In this document: piece after piece, positions 20,512 to 28,082 of the stretch | Layout of the letters: every line of letters begins with the position of its first letter | How positions within the stretch are numbered: the stretch's first letter is position 1 | Source of the DNA: Geothrix paludis | GTDB lineage: Bacteria > Acidobacteriota > Holophagae > Holophagales > Holophagaceae | Length of the DNA: 64,000 bases | Assembly: GCF_022808815.1 (NCBI RefSeq) | Contig: NZ_JAKZLC010000002.1 | Location: 124,001-188,000, forward strand | Direction: 5' to 3' | Position numbers and translations under genes: made by a program | The notes under the pieces: model-generated | What the model saw: only the letters and a program-made list of their open reading frames with translations | Told to the model about the DNA's origin: nothing | The model's database searches: none

Positions 20512-20588
<77 letters not shown>

Positions 20589-20600
20589 ATCGAACGATGG

Positions 20601-20747: not shown

Positions 20748-20773
20748 GGTTCAAATCCTGCCCCCGCTACCAA
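20748..20773 (+). repeat. Displaced 26-bp copy of the tRNA-fMet 3' end (att-like)
   Basis: The 26 bases are identical to 20564-20589, covering the T loop, 3' acceptor strand and CCA, 184 bp downstream of the original. They do not belong to a second tRNA, since the 5' half is missing. This is the usual mark left by integrases that target tRNA 3' ends. Confidence 0.8.
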
Positions 20774-20802: not shown

Positions 20803-21114
20803 TTGTTTTTTAACCGCATGACCGCAAGGCCCCAGGCGCGGCGATACTCTGGGGATATTCTAGGAAACTCAAATCAGACATTTCTGGTGATGATCATAAG
20901 AACGGCTGGATTCAACCCCTTCGGTATCCAGTTTCACGGCCCCGCCATTGATCCCAGGTTCAAGAGCCGCCGAGCCGAGATATGGGTGCAGATGGCTGAA
21001 TGGGTCACGCGTGGCGATGCGCTGCCCAAACTGCCCGAGTTGGTGGGCGATGTTTGGCGGGAACCGCAAAACCAGTCGAAAGTCCGATCCCCGCTCGCCC
21101 CTGGCAGGAACTGA
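20803..21114 (+). pseudogene. Fragment of a phage large terminase
   Basis: The open frame (103 aa if translated) contains a stretch at about residues 42-87: FGIQFHGPAIDPRF, then KSRRAEIWVQMAEWV and ALPKLPELVGDV. This block resembles the C-terminal part of large terminase subunits, where a DPRF-x-NKRAEMW-type helix and ALP-x-x-PEL follow. The gene is far too short for a terminase (normally 400-600 aa) and lacks the ATPase part, so it is a remnant. Lying just after a displaced tRNA 3' end, it suggests a decayed prophage at this locus. Similarity is by eye only. Confidence 0.55.
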
Positions 21115-21204
21115 AGCCGGGAACCAACGGGGATCGGGTATTCAGGAAGGCGTCAATCCTGTGTCGGCCCCGGAGCAAGTGCGCCGGGGCCGGAGGGGTA
21201 AGCA

Positions 21205-24200
21205 TCAAGGCAGGGGCAGGACCACGCGGAAGCCTGAGTATTCATTGGCGGGAGTGGGAACCGGATTGATGGGATAGGCCCCACGCCGCTTGGACTGGCC
21301 ATCGCTCGCGCTGCCGGCCCAGGACCCGCCCTTGTAGGAGTGCTGGATGTTCGGCGTGGCATCCAGCCAGGCACTGCCATCAACCGGGAGCGGGGGGATG
21401 CCCGGTCCAGTGACGGAATAATCGGCATGCCAATCATCCCGGCAGAGCTCCCACACGTTGCCGGTCATGTCGTACAGGCCCCAGGCGTTGGGGAGTTTCT
21501 TGGCCACCGGCTGAGTGGTCAGGTTGCTGTTGTCGGTATACCACATGTACTGCTGGATGAGCTGGATGACGGCCGGGTCTCCGCCACCCGGATCATAGGA
21601 GCCGAAATAGTAATTGTTGTTCAAGGGATCCGGGACGTTCAGCACGGTGGATTCACTCCCGGCCCGGCAGACGTATTCGTACTCGGCTTCCGTGGGCAGA
21701 CGGAAGGAACTGCCCGCTAGCGGGCCCGTCAGAACCGACGCCGCGGCCGAGTTCAACATGTCCAGGAAGCCCGTACTGGGGGTGGTGATGGCATTGAAGT
21801 CCACCGTTTCCACAGGCCGAGCCAGCTCCTCCGGATCCGGGAATCCATTGCCCGTCGTGAAATGCGCGGGGTTGTTGTTCATGATGGCCACCCACTGGGC
21901 CTGGGTGCAGGGCACCTTCGCGATGTAGAACGCCTTGCCCAAGGTCACGCCATGTGAAGGCTGTGTCGAGGGATCTGACCCGACAACAGACTCCGTTTCG
22001 CCCATGGTGAAGGTTCCCGCCGGGACCAGGACTAAGTCGATCGAGGTGCTGACGATAGGCACCATCGGGTCCGCAGGCACCGTGACGGTCAGGTACGGGG
22101 CGGGATAATCCACGGCCACGGTGGCTGTATTGGTGCCAGCGAAGGCGAGGGTCTGGGTCAGCGAAAGCACGGCGGGGTAGCGCTGCAGGTTGACGGGCCC
22201 CAAGGTACCAGGCGTGCCGGTACCATCCGCGCCTCGCCCCTGGCCAGGTTGGCTCGGGTCCGTGACAGTCGCGGGGGTGATGGTATAGACGCCGTCCGCC
22301 AGGCCCGAGAGCGTTTGCGTGGCAGCGGTAAGCACCGCGCTGGTGTAGCCGCTGGGTCCAGTGACAACCACGTTGCCTGGCAGGTTGCCCAGACCCGTGA
22401 TGTTCACGGTGAGGGTGTTGCCCACGATCACGGTGGCTGTGGCTGTGGCTGTGGCGGGAGTGGTCGCCGTGTTGGTCACGGTCAAGGTGAAGGTGGTCGT
22501 GGTTGTCAGATTGCCCGTGGTCTCGGCAACGGCGGTCGTCACGGCACCGACGCCATGGTCAACGGAGCCTGTTCCGCCGGTGAATGCCCCGGTCAGGGTC
22601 GTGCTGGTGCCCGCGGCGATGAGCGAGTCCGCGGCCGTGAAGCTGGTTATCACGGGCGGGTCCACCACATTCACAGTCACCTGCGCGGTTGCGGGGGTAC
22701 CTGCGCCGTTGGTCACAGTCAGGGTATAGGTCGTGGTGACTGTCGGGCTCACATTTTTTGTTCCGGGGCTTGTGACGGAGCCCACGCCCTGATCGATGGA
22801 ACCCGTGTCTCCACTGAAGGTGAACGACAGGGTGGTGCTAAAGCCATTGGTGATGGTGATGGTGCTGAGGCCGCCACTTGCGGTGAAGTTGGTGATGGCA
22901 GGAGCGGCCACGATGGTGCAGGTGGCTGTTCCCGCACTGGAGGCCGTGCCGGCGGCATTGGTGACGATGCAGGACAGGATGGTGCTGCCTGATGCTCCCG
23001 CTGTGAACGTGATGCTGGTCGAGGTGGCACCAGCCGTGATGCTTCCATTCGTGATGGTCCAGGCATAGGTACTACCCGCCGCCTGAGCCGGGACCGACGC
23101 GGTGTAACCCGCCTGGCTGGCGGTCACACTGGCCGGGGCCGTGACTACCGGAGTCGTCGGCGGGGCCACGATGGCGCACGTGGCTGTTCCGGCACTGGAG
23201 GCCGTGCCGGCGGCATTGGTGACGATGCAGGACGGGATGGTGTTGCCTGAGGCTCCCGCCGTGAACGTGATGCTGGTCGTGGTGGCACCGGCCGTGATGC
23301 TGCCATTCGTGATGGTCCAGGCATAGGTGCTGCCCGCCGCCTGAGCCGGAACCGACGCGGTGTAACCAGCCTTGTTGGCGGTCACACTGGCCGGGGCCGT
23401 GACTACCGGAGTCGTCGGCGCGGCCACGATGGCGCACGTGGCTGTTCCGGCAGTGGAGGCCGTGCCGGCGGCATTGGTGACGATGCAGGACGGGATGGTG
23501 CTGCCTGATGCTCCCGCTGTGAACGTGATGCTGGTCGAGGTGGCACCAGCCGTGATGCTTCCATTCGTGATGGTCCAGGCATAGGTACTACCCGCCTGGG
23601 CCGGGACCGACGCGGTGTAACCCGCCTGGCTGGCGGTCACACTGGCCGGGGCCGTGACCACCGGAGTCGTCGGCGGGGCCACGATGGCGCAGGTGGCTGT
23701 TCCGGCAGTGGAGGCCGTGCCGGCGGCATTGGTGACGATGCAGGACGGGATGGTGTTGCCGGATGTTCCCGCTGTGAACGTGATGCTGGTCGAGGTGGCA
23801 CCAGCCGTGATGCTTCCGTTCGTGATGGTCCAGGCATAGGTGCTACCCGCCTGAGCGGGGACCGACGCGGTGTAACCCGCCTGGCTGGCGGTCACACTGG
23901 CCGGGGCCGTGACCACCGGAGTCGTCGGCGGGGCCACGATGGTGCAGGTGGCTGTTCCGGCAGTGGAGGCCGTGCCAGCGGCATTGGTGACGATGCAGGA
24001 CGGGATGGTGTTGCCGGATGTTCCCGCCGTGAACGTGATGCTGGTCGTGGTGGCACCGGCCGTGATGCTGCCATTCGTGAGGGTCCAGGCATAGGTGCTA
24101 CCGGCCGCCTGAGCCGGAACCGACGCGGTGTAACCAGCCTTGTTGGCAGTGATACTGGCCGGGGCCGTGACCACCGGAGTCGTGGGCGCGGCCACGATGG

Positions 24201-25902
24201 CGCACGTGGCTGTTCCGGCGGTGGAGGCCGTGCCGGCGGCATTGGTGACGATGCAGGACGGCGTGGCGTTCCCTGAGGCTCCCGCCGTGAACGTGATGCT
24301 GGTCGTGGTTGCACCGGCCGTGATGCTTCCATTCGTGATGGTCCAGGCATAGGTGCTACCCGCCTGGGCCGGGACCGACGCGGTGTAACCCGCCTGGCTG
24401 GCGGTCACACTGGCCGGAGCCGTGACCACCGGAGTCGTGGGCGCGGCCACGATGGCGCACGTGGCTGTTCCGGCAGTGGAGGCCGTGCCGGCGGCATTGG
24501 TGACGATGCAGGACGGCGTGGCGTTCCCTGAGGCTCCCGCCGTGAACGTGATGCTGGTCGTGGTTGCACCGGCCGTGATGCTTCCATTCGTGATGGTCCA
24601 GGCATAGGTGCTACCCGCCTGGGCCGGGACCGACGCGGTGTAACCCGCCTGGCTGGCGGTCACACTGGCCGGAGCCGTGACCACCGGAGTCGTGGGCGCG
24701 GCCACGATGGCGCACGTGGCTGTCCCGGCGGTGGAAGCCGTGCCGGCGGCATTGGTGACGATGCAGGACGGGATGGTGTTGCCTGAGGCTCCCGCCGTGA
24801 ACGTGATGCTGGTCGTGGTGGCACCGGCCGTGATGCTGCCATTCGTGAGGGTCCAGGCATAGGTGCTACCGGCCGCCTGAGCCGGAACCGACGCGGTGTA
24901 ACCAGCCTTGTTGGCGGTCACACTGGCCGGGGCCGTGACCACCGGAGTCGTCGGCGCGGCCACCACGGTCGCGGTCACTGGCAGGGTGACGGCGGTGCCC
25001 GTTGCATTGGCCACGGTCAGGGTGAAAATCGTTGTGGTCGCCAAATTGCCCGTGGGCACGGCAACACCGCTGGTCACGGCACCGATGCCGTGGTCCACTG
25101 TGCCCGTTCCGCCCGTGAACACTGCCGTCAATGTCGTTCCGGTTCCGGAGGTCACGGGACTCTTGGCCGCGACGAAGCTGGTGATGACAGGAGCCGCGAT
25201 CACCGTGAGCGTGGCCCCACTGCTGTTGAGCGTTCCAACAGCGTTGGTCAAGGCGCAACGATACTGGGTACCGGTGTCGCTCAAGGAGGTGGCGGCTGTG
25301 GTGTAGCTGGCGCTCGTGGCGCCCGTGCCGCTGGACACGTTCGCCCAGGTGGTTCCGTTCGTGCTGGATTGCCATTGATAGGTGGCGACCGGGCTGGCAT
25401 CCGGCACCACAGTGAAGGTGGCCGTGGCACCGACCGTCACACTCGCGTTGGCGGGTTGGGTGGTGATGGCAAGCCACCGTACGGTCAGTGTGGCCGCGGT
25501 GCTGGTGGCATCCGGGCTAACCGTGTTGGTGGCCACGGCGCGAAATTGGGCGGCATCGTCCGCCTTGACAGTGGCGGCGGTGGTATAGGTCGCGCTGGTG
25601 GCACCGGGGATCGCTGTCCAGGTGGTGCCACCGTCGTTGCTGCGCTGCCAGGTGAAGGTGGGCGCAGGCGTGCCGCTGGCCGCGGCCGTGAAGGTGGCTG
25701 TGCTACCCGCGTTCACGATCTGGCTCGCTGGCTGGGTGGTGATCAGGGGAGCCGTATTTGGGGGGGTGGTTCCGCCACCGCCTCCGCAGGCCATGGTCAG
25801 GATGAGTGCCGCCTGGGCCAGAAACAGCCCTGCGGAACGCCAGGTGAAGGGCGATGACCCACTCTTGGTGGATAGTGGTGGCCTCTGCGCTGCCATGCAC
25901 AT
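21205..25902 (-). CDS. Giant lipoprotein: Ig-like repeats plus C-terminal FGE/SUMF1 domain
   Basis: 1565 aa from ATG 25902 with AGGAG 6-7 bases before it. A basic N-terminus, a hydrophobic segment (about 22-39) and LTMAC|GGGGG form a lipobox, so the protein is lipid-anchored. Next come two Ig-like domains (about 50-235), a linker domain, then eight nearly identical ~85-residue Ig/PKD-like repeats (DNA 22901-24951), each with a Cys pair near SCIVTN and ATCAIV. Two further Ig-like units follow. The last ~260 residues are an FGE/SUMF1 domain: LVLVPAGTFTMGET, FRLPTEAEYEYVCRAG, GLYDMTGNVWELCRDDW, YKGGSW, and a closing YSGFRVVLP. This domain also occurs outside sulfatase activation in surface proteins. 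Likely outer-surface adhesin or receptor; ligand unknown. Confidence 0.85.
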   Translation of the reverse strand: MCMAAQRPPLSTKSGSSPFTWRSAGLFLAQAALILTMACGGGGGTTPPNTAPLITTQPASQIVNAGSTATFTAAASGTPAPTFTWQRSNDGGTTWTAIPGATSATYTTAATVKADDAAQFRAVATNTVSPDATSTAATLTVRWLAITTQPANASVTVGATATFTVVPDASPVATYQWQSSTNGTTWANVSSGTGATSASYTTAATSLSDTGTQYRCALTNAVGTLNSSGATLTVIAAPVITSFVAAKSPVTSGTGTTLTAVFTGGTGTVDHGIGAVTSGVAVPTGNLATTTIFTLTVANATGTAVTLPVTATVVAAPTTPVVTAPASVTANKAGYTASVPAQAAGSTYAWTLTNGSITAGATTTSITFTAGASGNTIPSCIVTNAAGTASTAGTATCAIVAAPTTPVVTAPASVTASQAGYTASVPAQAGSTYAWTITNGSITAGATTTSITFTAGASGNATPSCIVTNAAGTASTAGTATCAIVAAPTTPVVTAPASVTASQAGYTASVPAQAGSTYAWTITNGSITAGATTTSITFTAGASGNATPSCIVTNAAGTASTAGTATCAIVAAPTTPVVTAPASITANKAGYTASVPAQAAGSTYAWTLTNGSITAGATTTSITFTAGTSGNTIPSCIVTNAAGTASTAGTATCTIVAPPTTPVVTAPASVTASQAGYTASVPAQAGSTYAWTITNGSITAGATSTSITFTAGTSGNTIPSCIVTNAAGTASTAGTATCAIVAPPTTPVVTAPASVTASQAGYTASVPAQAGSTYAWTITNGSITAGATSTSITFTAGASGSTIPSCIVTNAAGTASTAGTATCAIVAAPTTPVVTAPASVTANKAGYTASVPAQAAGSTYAWTITNGSITAGATTTSITFTAGASGNTIPSCIVTNAAGTASSAGTATCAIVAPPTTPVVTAPASVTASQAGYTASVPAQAAGSTYAWTITNGSITAGATSTSITFTAGASGSTILSCIVTNAAGTASSAGTATCTIVAAPAITNFTASGGLSTITITNGFSTTLSFTFSGDTGSIDQGVGSVTSPGTKNVSPTVTTTYTLTVTNGAGTPATAQVTVNVVDPPVITSFTAADSLIAAGTSTTLTGAFTGGTGSVDHGVGAVTTAVAETTGNLTTTTTFTLTVTNTATTPATATATATVIVGNTLTVNITGLGNLPGNVVVTGPSGYTSAVLTAATQTLSGLADGVYTITPATVTDPSQPGQGRGADGTGTPGTLGPVNLQRYPAVLSLTQTLAFAGTNTATVAVDYPAPYLTVTVPADPMVPIVSTSIDLVLVPAGTFTMGETESVVGSDPSTQPSHGVTLGKAFYIAKVPCTQAQWVAIMNNNPAHFTTGNGFPDPEELARPVETVDFNAITTPSTGFLDMLNSAAASVLTGPLAGSSFRLPTEAEYEYVCRAGSESTVLNVPDPLNNNYYFGSYDPGGGDPAVIQLIQQYMWYTDNSNLTTQPVAKKLPNAWGLYDMTGNVWELCRDDWHADYSVTGPGIPPLPVDGSAWLDATPNIQHSYKGGSWAGSASDGQSKRRGAYPINPVPTPANEYSGFRVVLPLP
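22901..24951 (-). repeat. Eight tandem 255-258-bp coding repeats
   Basis: Inside the lipoprotein gene, eight units of 255 or 258 bp repeat with few differences. Each begins with the codons for TPVVTAPAS and ends at GTATCAIVAxPT. Length alternates because one Ala codon is present or absent (AQAAGS versus AQAGS), and units alternate between TANKAG and TASQAG types. Such high identity points to recent duplication or gene conversion. Confidence 0.9.
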
Positions 25903-26483
25903 AACCGGCTCCTGGTTTGTTGAATACAGTGAATTCCGGATGGGTCCTCGTCAAGGAATGTTAAGAAAATTAATGAGTTACCGACTATGTAACAATTTTG
26001 CCCCATGTAGGTTTTTTCATGTGGCTGTACCCAAAATCATCTCAAATTAATAATTGAGCCATAGCCGTAGGACCTGAATGGACAACCACTGAGGTTGATA
26101 TTCAGGATCCTGAATGGCTGTACCGGAGAAGTTCGTGGGTCTTTGCAAGGCTTCCTGACTGGTTCCTCTGGTTTCGTGACCCGCCCGAATCGGATGCCTT
26201 GACTGGTGGATTGAGGCTGGCTCCACCGATGGTGGCCGCTTGAGCCACGCGGCAGGTCTCCTCCTGATCGGCGCGCGGTCCTGGAAGCGGGCGTATGAGC
26301 CATTTTCGAGCTGCAGGCGACTTCGCTCATTTCTCTCGCCCAGGCTTCGACACGCGGGTTCCATGCGGACAATCAGCGCTTCGAAATGGTCTAGCAGCTA
26401 TTTCAAAAGTGGAACTTTTTCCTAGACCAAACAACTGGAGACATTGGGAGGTGACCTGGTGGTCCACCTTCTCAAGGATCTTC
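25903..26483. other. Gene-free stretch, AT-rich next to the lipoprotein gene
   Basis: 580 bp with no gene I can defend. The right edge of the lipoprotein gene (25920-26080) is unusually AT-rich (AAGAAAATTAATGAG and TGTAACAATTTTG are seen) and should hold its promoter on the minus strand. The part at 26080-26480 is GC-intermediate. Short open frames on both strands there lack a ribosome site. Confidence 0.5.
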
Positions 26484-26939
26484 ATGCGCAACTTTCCGCC
26501 CACCACTTTTGTAGACACCACCCAGATCGGTTGGATCCCACTCTCCGAGGGGTTGTCCTTCAAACCCATCTATATTTTCCCAGACCTCAGTGGTTGGCAG
26601 CTCCTGCTCCGGCTGGAACCTGGAACGGTGATCTCTCGCCACCGCCACACTGGAGAGGTCCACGCCTTCAACCTTTCTGGCACAAGGCGGCTGGATACCG
26701 GCGAGATCGTAGGCCCCGGCATGTACGTTCACGAACCTGCGGGGAATGAGGACAGTTGGGAGGCCATCGGCGATGAGCCCTGCATTGTCCACATCGAAGT
26801 GAACGGCCGGAATGAATACCGGGATGCAGCGGGGAATCTGATCCGCGTCGCGGATGCTCTCGGCGCTCGCCAGGACTATCTGGATTGGTGCCACACCGAG
26901 GGCGTGGAGCCGCTCCCAGCCCTCGCGGAGAAAGCGTGA
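26484..26939 (+). CDS. Cupin-domain protein (ChrR/acetophenone-dioxygenase-like)
   Basis: 151 aa, start ATG 26484 with AAGGA about 7 bases upstream; upstream in-frame codons lack a site. Single cupin barrel: GWQLLLRLEPGTVISRHRHTGEVHAFNLSG holds the first metal-binding cupin motif (HRH and E), and GPGMYVHEPAGNEDSWE holds the second (H). This arrangement resembles ChrR-type and 2,4'-dihydroxyacetophenone dioxygenase-like cupins, so iron or zinc binding is expected. It ends overlapping the next gene by 3 bases (GTGA), implying coupled expression with the membrane protein. Substrate not known. Confidence 0.8.
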   Translation: MRNFPPTTFVDTTQIGWIPLSEGLSFKPIYIFPDLSGWQLLLRLEPGTVISRHRHTGEVHAFNLSGTRRLDTGEIVGPGMYVHEPAGNEDSWEAIGDEPCIVHIEVNGRNEYRDAAGNLIRVADALGARQDYLDWCHTEGVEPLPALAEKA

Positions 26940-27991
26940 GCCAGGACAACCAAACAAGAGCATCAGGCTGGGTCTTATCGGAGGCATTGAACCGGTCCAT
27001 TGGGTTCATCCCTCCCATTGGGGCGCTCGTTTATCCATACGTGCTCGTGGGATTCCACACTTCCCTGGACCACAGAGGGGGTAGGTTCGGCCTGGTCCCA
27101 GCCGCCTTGCTACTGCTGGCCTTCCTCATGCCTGTCGCAGCTCTGCTCGCCGCCATGCACCTCGGGGGAATCCAGGCGCCCAATTCGGCTGAACTGAGGG
27201 CCCGCAGGGTGGCCCTGCTTGCAGTCGCCTCGCCCGCCATTTTCACCCTGGCCAGTGTCGCCCTCTACATGGTCGGCTACCCTCAAACCTGCACTTGGTT
27301 ATTGAGCCTCATGTGGGCCGGCTTCGCTGTCCTGATCGCCTTGAGTGACCGGACGCACCCCGTGACCGTGCTCCCTGCGCGCCCGCGCATCAAGCTGCGA
27401 AAGTTCCATGGATATACAGCCCTTGGAATCCTCCTGGTCTTTCTGGGAGGTCATCTGGCCAATCACCTCCTCGGTCTTATCGGACCAGAGGCCCATGCCG
27501 CGATGATGCGGTCCCTGCGCCAGGTTTACCGATCACCGGTGGTAGAACCGCTCCTCATGATTGGTTTCTTCGCCCAGATTGCCACGGGGGTCTTTCTCGG
27601 ATGGCAGTACACGAAATGTGCCACCGGCCGATTCCGGACATTCCAGCTCGCATCAGGAATCTATCTCAGCTTCTTCATCATCAGCCACAGCAATGCTGTC
27701 TTCATCCTGGCCCGCAGAATCCTCAACATCGACTCCGACTGGGGGTTCGCCACCGGGGCCCCCACGGGACTGATTCATGATGCGTGGAACATCCGTCTGG
27801 TCCCTCTTTATTGGCTGGCAGTATTCTTCGTCCTTTCTCATGTGGGCAGCGGCCTGCGGGCCATCATGCTGGCGCATGGAGCACGGCGGGAATTGGCGGA
27901 TGGCGTGGTGGTCTGGGGCGCCGTAGCCTCAGCCCTTATCGCCACCGCCATTCTGCTTGGCATGTGCGGCCTGCGACTCCAGTTCCTTTAA
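26936..27991 (+). CDS. Multi-spanning membrane protein with cytochrome b-like histidines
   Basis: 351 aa starting at a GTG (26936) that overlaps the stop of the cupin gene; GGAG sits 5 bases upstream. About eight to ten hydrophobic segments: two in the first 140 residues, then a second half of about five. Conserved-looking His residues occur inside helices: KFHGYTALGILLVFLGGHLANH, SFFIISHSN and FFVLSHVGSG. The order LRQVYRSPVVEPLLMIGFFAQI resembles the SdhC type of cytochrome b subunit. Heme binding is therefore a guess, not shown. Operon with the cupin suggests a small membrane redox or sensing pair. Confidence 0.6.
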   Translation: MSQDNQTRASGWVLSEALNRSIGFIPPIGALVYPYVLVGFHTSLDHRGGRFGLVPAALLLLAFLMPVAALLAAMHLGGIQAPNSAELRARRVALLAVASPAIFTLASVALYMVGYPQTCTWLLSLMWAGFAVLIALSDRTHPVTVLPARPRIKLRKFHGYTALGILLVFLGGHLANHLLGLIGPEAHAAMMRSLRQVYRSPVVEPLLMIGFFAQIATGVFLGWQYTKCATGRFRTFQLASGIYLSFFIISHSNAVFILARRILNIDSDWGFATGAPTGLIHDAWNIRLVPLYWLAVFFVLSHVGSGLRAIMLAHGARRELADGVVVWGAVASALIATAILLGMCGLRLQFL

Positions 27992-28082
27992 GGCGCGCGG
28001 TAAGCGGAGCAACGCGGAAGCCAGCAGAGATGCCACTCACCCGCGGGCGGAAGGACATCTCAGCGCCTCAGCGGTCTGGCCG

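Follow-up and report, generated by a model that had tools for sequence, protein, structure and literature searches.

A Geothrix lipoprotein with eight PKD-like repeats and an FGE-fold head, best read as a Periscope-like stalked protein

What kind of protein places eight nearly identical Ig-like repeats between a lipoprotein signal and a domain of the formylglycine-generating enzyme (FGE) family, and does the length of its repeat array still change? The question is raised by a gene at 21205-25902 in a 64-kb stretch of Geothrix paludis DNA, referred to below as the window. The gene is a single ORF of 1565 aa on the minus strand, as are all of its features described here. Its closest matches are in Geothrix genomes, with orthologues in Geothrix sp. 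SG200, G. fuzhouensis SG12 and G. terrae SG184. The protein starts with a putative signal peptide (25786-25902), in which a lipobox-like LTMAC motif with C39 stands directly after a hydrophobic stretch and is followed by a run of Gly, as read from the sequence rather than from a signal predictor. Two N-terminal Ig-like domains (25195-25746, residues about 53-236; two stretches each of Pfam Ig_3 and I-set, with the second boundary set by eye) precede a further beta-type segment (24952-25194, residues 237-317), which was delimited by eye from the translation, has no Pfam match and is similar to the segments after the array. The array itself covers 22900-24951 (residues 318-1001) and is followed by two more beta-type segments (22405-22899, residues 1002-1166, by eye from the translation), a linker whose limits were also set by eye, and an FGE-sulfatase-family (SUMF1-like) domain (21220-22038, residues 1289-1561).

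Tandem Repeats Finder returned a 255-base unit in 8.0 copies (22904-24963, 93% matches) and Pfam returned eight stretches of PKD_6 (PF19408, PKD-like) as well as PF03781 at the C-terminus, in agreement with a preliminary description of the locus as eight Ig-like repeats in a lipoprotein with a C-terminal FGE-family domain. The repeats are 86, 85, 85, 86, 85, 85, 86 and 86 aa long in order, the difference being a single Ala, as had also been reported. The two flavours do not alternate as claimed, however. Flavour A (NKAG..AAG) was found in repeats 1 (24694-24951), 4 (23926-24183) and 7 (23158-23415), and flavour B (SQAG) in repeats 2 (24439-24693), 3 (24184-24438), 5 (23671-23925), 6 (23416-23670) and 8 (22900-23157), the last of which is flavour B with the extra Ala. 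This order, A B B A B B A B, would fit the duplication of a block of three repeats better than alternation. Two Cys residues are present in all eight repeats (PSC/LSC and ATC), the second of which is replaced by Ser in some repeats of G. terrae and SG12; a disulphide between the two is possible.

That the repeats differ by only a few residues was borne out at the protein level, where neighbouring repeats of the window array are 0.89-1.00 identical (mean 0.94), but not in the DNA, where 44 of 258 columns are variable and 27 of the 28 repeat pairs are 9-26 nt apart, the exception being copies 2 and 3, which differ by 1 nt. Pairwise comparison of the repeats gave a mean dN of 0.033 against a mean dS of 0.173, which says that purifying selection explains part of the protein likeness, and single pairs reach a dS of 0.26. 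Because these values are comparable to the dS of the flanks of the lipoprotein gene between species (0.14-0.26), most copies date from about the time at which the species diverged. On synonymous divergence, a point raised in the preliminary description, most copies are therefore not fresh, at a mean dS of about 0.17, the level of sister species; only copies 2 and 3 are recent.

The same differences bear on the possibility that assembly created the array or its copy number as an artefact. An exact repeat of 248 nt lies inside the window array, and the G. terrae SG184 assembly is broken within its own array, so that one scaffold has about 2.2 copies and a second has 1.7; both observations would fit such an artefact. 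However, at least seven copies are distinct, since 9 nt or more separate every pair but copies 2 and 3, and arrays are present in the orthologues too. We therefore regard an artefact as highly improbable.

The assembled copy number is 8 in the window, 4 in Geothrix sp. SG200 and 4 in G. fuzhouensis SG12, as counted in draft or unknown-type assemblies with one genome per species, and the flanks of these three orthologues have a protein identity of 0.90-0.95. The nucleotide distance of the repeats is 0.065 within an array versus 0.093 between species, a difference that none of 10000 label shuffles reached; 19 of the 20 repeats were used here and in the site-order tests, an incomplete G. terrae repeat (58 aa) being left out. 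The repeats of G. terrae have a mean distance of only 0.021 from each other. Repeats are thus nearer to those of their own array than to sister-species ones, supporting concerted evolution. In a PHI-like site-order test on the window array, local incompatibility was below that of permuted orders (2/2000 and 0/2000 permutations); taken over all 19 repeats together, the test was not significant (187/2000 and 422/2000). Recombination in the array is thus supported on an evolutionary scale, between species, and to this extent the preliminary claim of ongoing recombination holds, by concerted evolution, by the 8/4/4 copy numbers and by the site-order test, but the word "ongoing" rests on one near-identical pair.

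Could the stalk nevertheless be fixed in length, with its likeness due to purifying selection and to concerted evolution that proceeds slowly, on the time scale of species, and with no meaningful variation within populations? The low dN relative to dS, together with single pairs as diverged as the flanks are between species, would be consistent with such a protein. The single nucleotide between copies 2 and 3, the change from 8 to 4 copies across species and the closeness of the G. terrae repeats argue against it, and a fixed stalk is, in our judgement, rather unlikely while deserving serious consideration. Further afield, G028 and G020 form a more distantly related pair with FGE heads; their arrays have 7 and 3 copies, and flank identity is only 0.63-0.81. 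In two species with a propeller head (G002 and G032), both arrays have 9 copies, the repeats being 0.63-0.66 alike and the flanks 0.95-0.97 identical. These copy-number contrasts come from few cases and from assemblies of unequal quality.

A structure model of a repeat pair is all-beta, with a mean pLDDT of 97.6 and a pTM of 0.84, and the repeats are predicted with high confidence to fold as individual domains. The best structural matches of the model are stalk fragments of GhpA, the grappling hook protein of Aureispira (Foldseek E 4.6e-8; Z 11.2, rmsd 5.2, 156 aligned), with many Ig-type proteins ranking after it. The likeness is that of a common Ig-type fold only, which says nothing on function, and the hook function belongs to GhpA.

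The C-terminal domain matches PF03781 at 114.2 bits (E 1.1e-32), well over the cut-off of 23.3. Among solved chains in the PDB, the nearest by profile were PvdO (1.3e-33), TvpA (7e-33), true FGEs (from 5.7e-25) and PorK (2.2e-19). In a profile alignment to Streptomyces FGE (6muj/2q17), both Cys of the motif GGSYLCHDSYC, which we take to be the copper-site pair, correspond to Gly1530 and Gly1535 (21298-21315), and a column table of homologues showed that none of the ten aligned FGE-family domains keeps both Cys (one further sequence, L031, was left out for one stop codon). Retention of the copper-site Cys, a point raised in the preliminary description, was therefore not found, and an active FGE was rejected for this domain. 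By its alignment, the head is not an FGE, and we read it as a repurposed FGE/C-type-lectin fold. Since AlphaFold, run on 10 sequences, gave a poor model of the domain (pLDDT 45.8), which was left out of the fold searches, this assignment rests on sequence homology.

An enzyme of a different sort was also weighed, in which the head would be a PvdO-like oxidoreductase lacking the FGE Cys, held on a spacer at the surface or in the periplasm. PvdO is both the closest solved relative in sequence and, through NF051459, the best NCBIfam match of the head, but its score of 81.8 bits is far under the cut-off of 500; we hold such an enzyme to be improbable. The Geothrix domain also differs from PvdO in being fused to a lipoprotein stalk. 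The PorK/GldK family TIGR03525 gave 55.5 bits on the head, below its cut-off of 350.

TvpA, the second-best PDB match, offers another reading, namely that the gene is the target of a diversity-generating retroelement (DGR). TvpA and Mtd are DGR variable proteins with the FGE-type C-type-lectin fold that the head shares, a fold which the relevant part of PMC5006420 presents as a general ligand-binding motif. However, no reverse transcriptase (PF00078, E <= 0.001) was found in the genome of the window, which is 96.65% complete, compared with 3 positives among 14 control genomes, and the last 300 nt of the lipoprotein gene match only themselves genome-wide, leaving no template repeat. As neither element was found, the gene is no DGR target, and this candidate was rejected as almost certainly wrong.

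A role in binding or docking fits the head better. PorK has an FGE fold but lacks the two Cys; part of PMC12421860 characterises it as probably no enzyme for this reason, and as a docking hub. A search of 47 Geothrix genomes gave FGE-family matches in 17, with E below 1e-120 for 8 of these. Because the fold is known as a binding or docking module and recurs in these genomes, its fusion to a surface protein is not especially odd; the preliminary description was right that the fusion exists, less so in calling it unusual for an adhesin, a label that is itself inferred.

Taken together, we think it probable that the protein is a surface lipoprotein of variable length and acts in the manner of Periscope proteins, with a variable stalk and a binding head. 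The lipid-modified N-terminal Cys would anchor it in the outer membrane, and the eight Ig/PKD-like repeats, predicted to be beta-sandwiches, would form a stalk, presumably rod-shaped, with the other beta-type segments. The C-terminal FGE-fold domain without copper Cys may then serve as the ligand-binding or docking head. High DNA identity between repeats would allow unequal crossing-over and gene conversion to add, remove and homogenise copies, and each change of copy number may alter the distance of the head from the cell, the copy difference itself having been seen between species in draft assemblies. The analysis shows the architecture itself, the missing copper Cys, concerted evolution and a copy number that differs between assemblies, whereas exposure at the surface, ligand binding, a rod-like shape and control through length are what we infer.

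The Periscope proteins SasG, Rib, Sgo_0707 and CdrA, as introduced in parts of PMC8201768 and PMC9704523, have tandem, highly identical, individually folding and mostly Ig-like domains, a copy number that varies among relatives, a terminal functional domain and homologous recombination as the proposed cause of copy-number change. The Geothrix lipoprotein resembles them in its highly identical tandem repeats, in their predicted individual folding, in a copy number that differs between the assemblies of related species, in a putative functional domain at one end and in recombination as the probable cause. The Geothrix protein differs in its N-terminal lipoprotein anchor and C-terminal head, in its host, a soil bacterium of the Acidobacteriota, and in that its variation is seen only between species. 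PorK/GldK, lipoproteins of the type IX secretion system, have an FGE-like fold without both active-site Cys, as the Geothrix head does, but are ring components, and no repeat stalk features in their description in the corresponding part of PMC12421860. A literature search found no paper combining FGE-sulfatase, PKD domain and lipoprotein, and FGE-sulfatase and C-type lectin each occur zero times in the main text, as available, of a fibrillar-adhesin survey (PMC9210967). No published description of the Geothrix lipoprotein was found in the literature searched, and one may still exist. The protein looks like one more example of a length-variable bacterial surface protein of an already known sort, and is best read as a stalked lipoprotein akin to Periscope proteins, its head being a repurposed FGE fold.

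Other Geothrix genomes hint at a wider set. In one (G033), a protein with a comparable leader and an FGE head lacks the PKD array and has a stalk of other Ig-like domains, and related repeat stalks elsewhere end in a different head: a lactonase-type propeller (L037, L043), Kelch (L039) or RCC1 (L041). We tentatively propose, as a possibility less likely than not to hold in full, that Geothrix has a modular set of stalked lipoproteins that share one PKD/Ig-like repeat stalk and differ in their interchangeable heads (FGE fold, lactonase-type propeller, Kelch and RCC1), that recombination resets the length of near-identical arrays fast enough for variation within populations, and that the gene may also move from one tRNA-linked integration site to another. 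If so, a soil lineage would have length-variable display for which host immunity is no explanation. If stalk length does vary in Geothrix populations, Periscope-type variation would extend to soil bacteria that live free of any host immune system, and adhesion or contact distance, more than escape from immunity, would be its likelier driver. Arrays with near-identical repeats and changing copy number, set against those with diverged repeats and constant copy number, would provide a small natural test of this idea.

Upstream of the gene, a block at 26219-28043 (ORFs 26295-26939 and 26885-27991) is present in G. terrae and unmatched in SG200. On the other side of the gene, a tRNA-Met (20512-20588) lies 617 nt from the end of the lipoprotein gene, and the last 25 nt of this tRNA plus one base (20564-20589) recur as an exact 26-nt direct repeat at 20748-20773, which looks like an attachment-site duplication; DNA likeness to G. 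terrae ends inside this repeat. Geothrix sp. SG200 has two full copies of the tRNA-Met and two further repeats of its 3' end. The full copies bracket about 8 kb (L051, 14531-22696) that include a phage-type integrase gene (PF00589, 14910-15977) and adjoin the orthologous lipoprotein gene. In G. fuzhouensis SG12 (L052), the gene lies in a different chromosomal region, next to a tRNA-Arg; the window's genome carries other genes at this place, and DNA likeness to the window within the SG12 stretch compared is limited to the gene unit (window positions 21048-26159). This arrangement suggests that the region may be mobile in a tRNA-linked manner.
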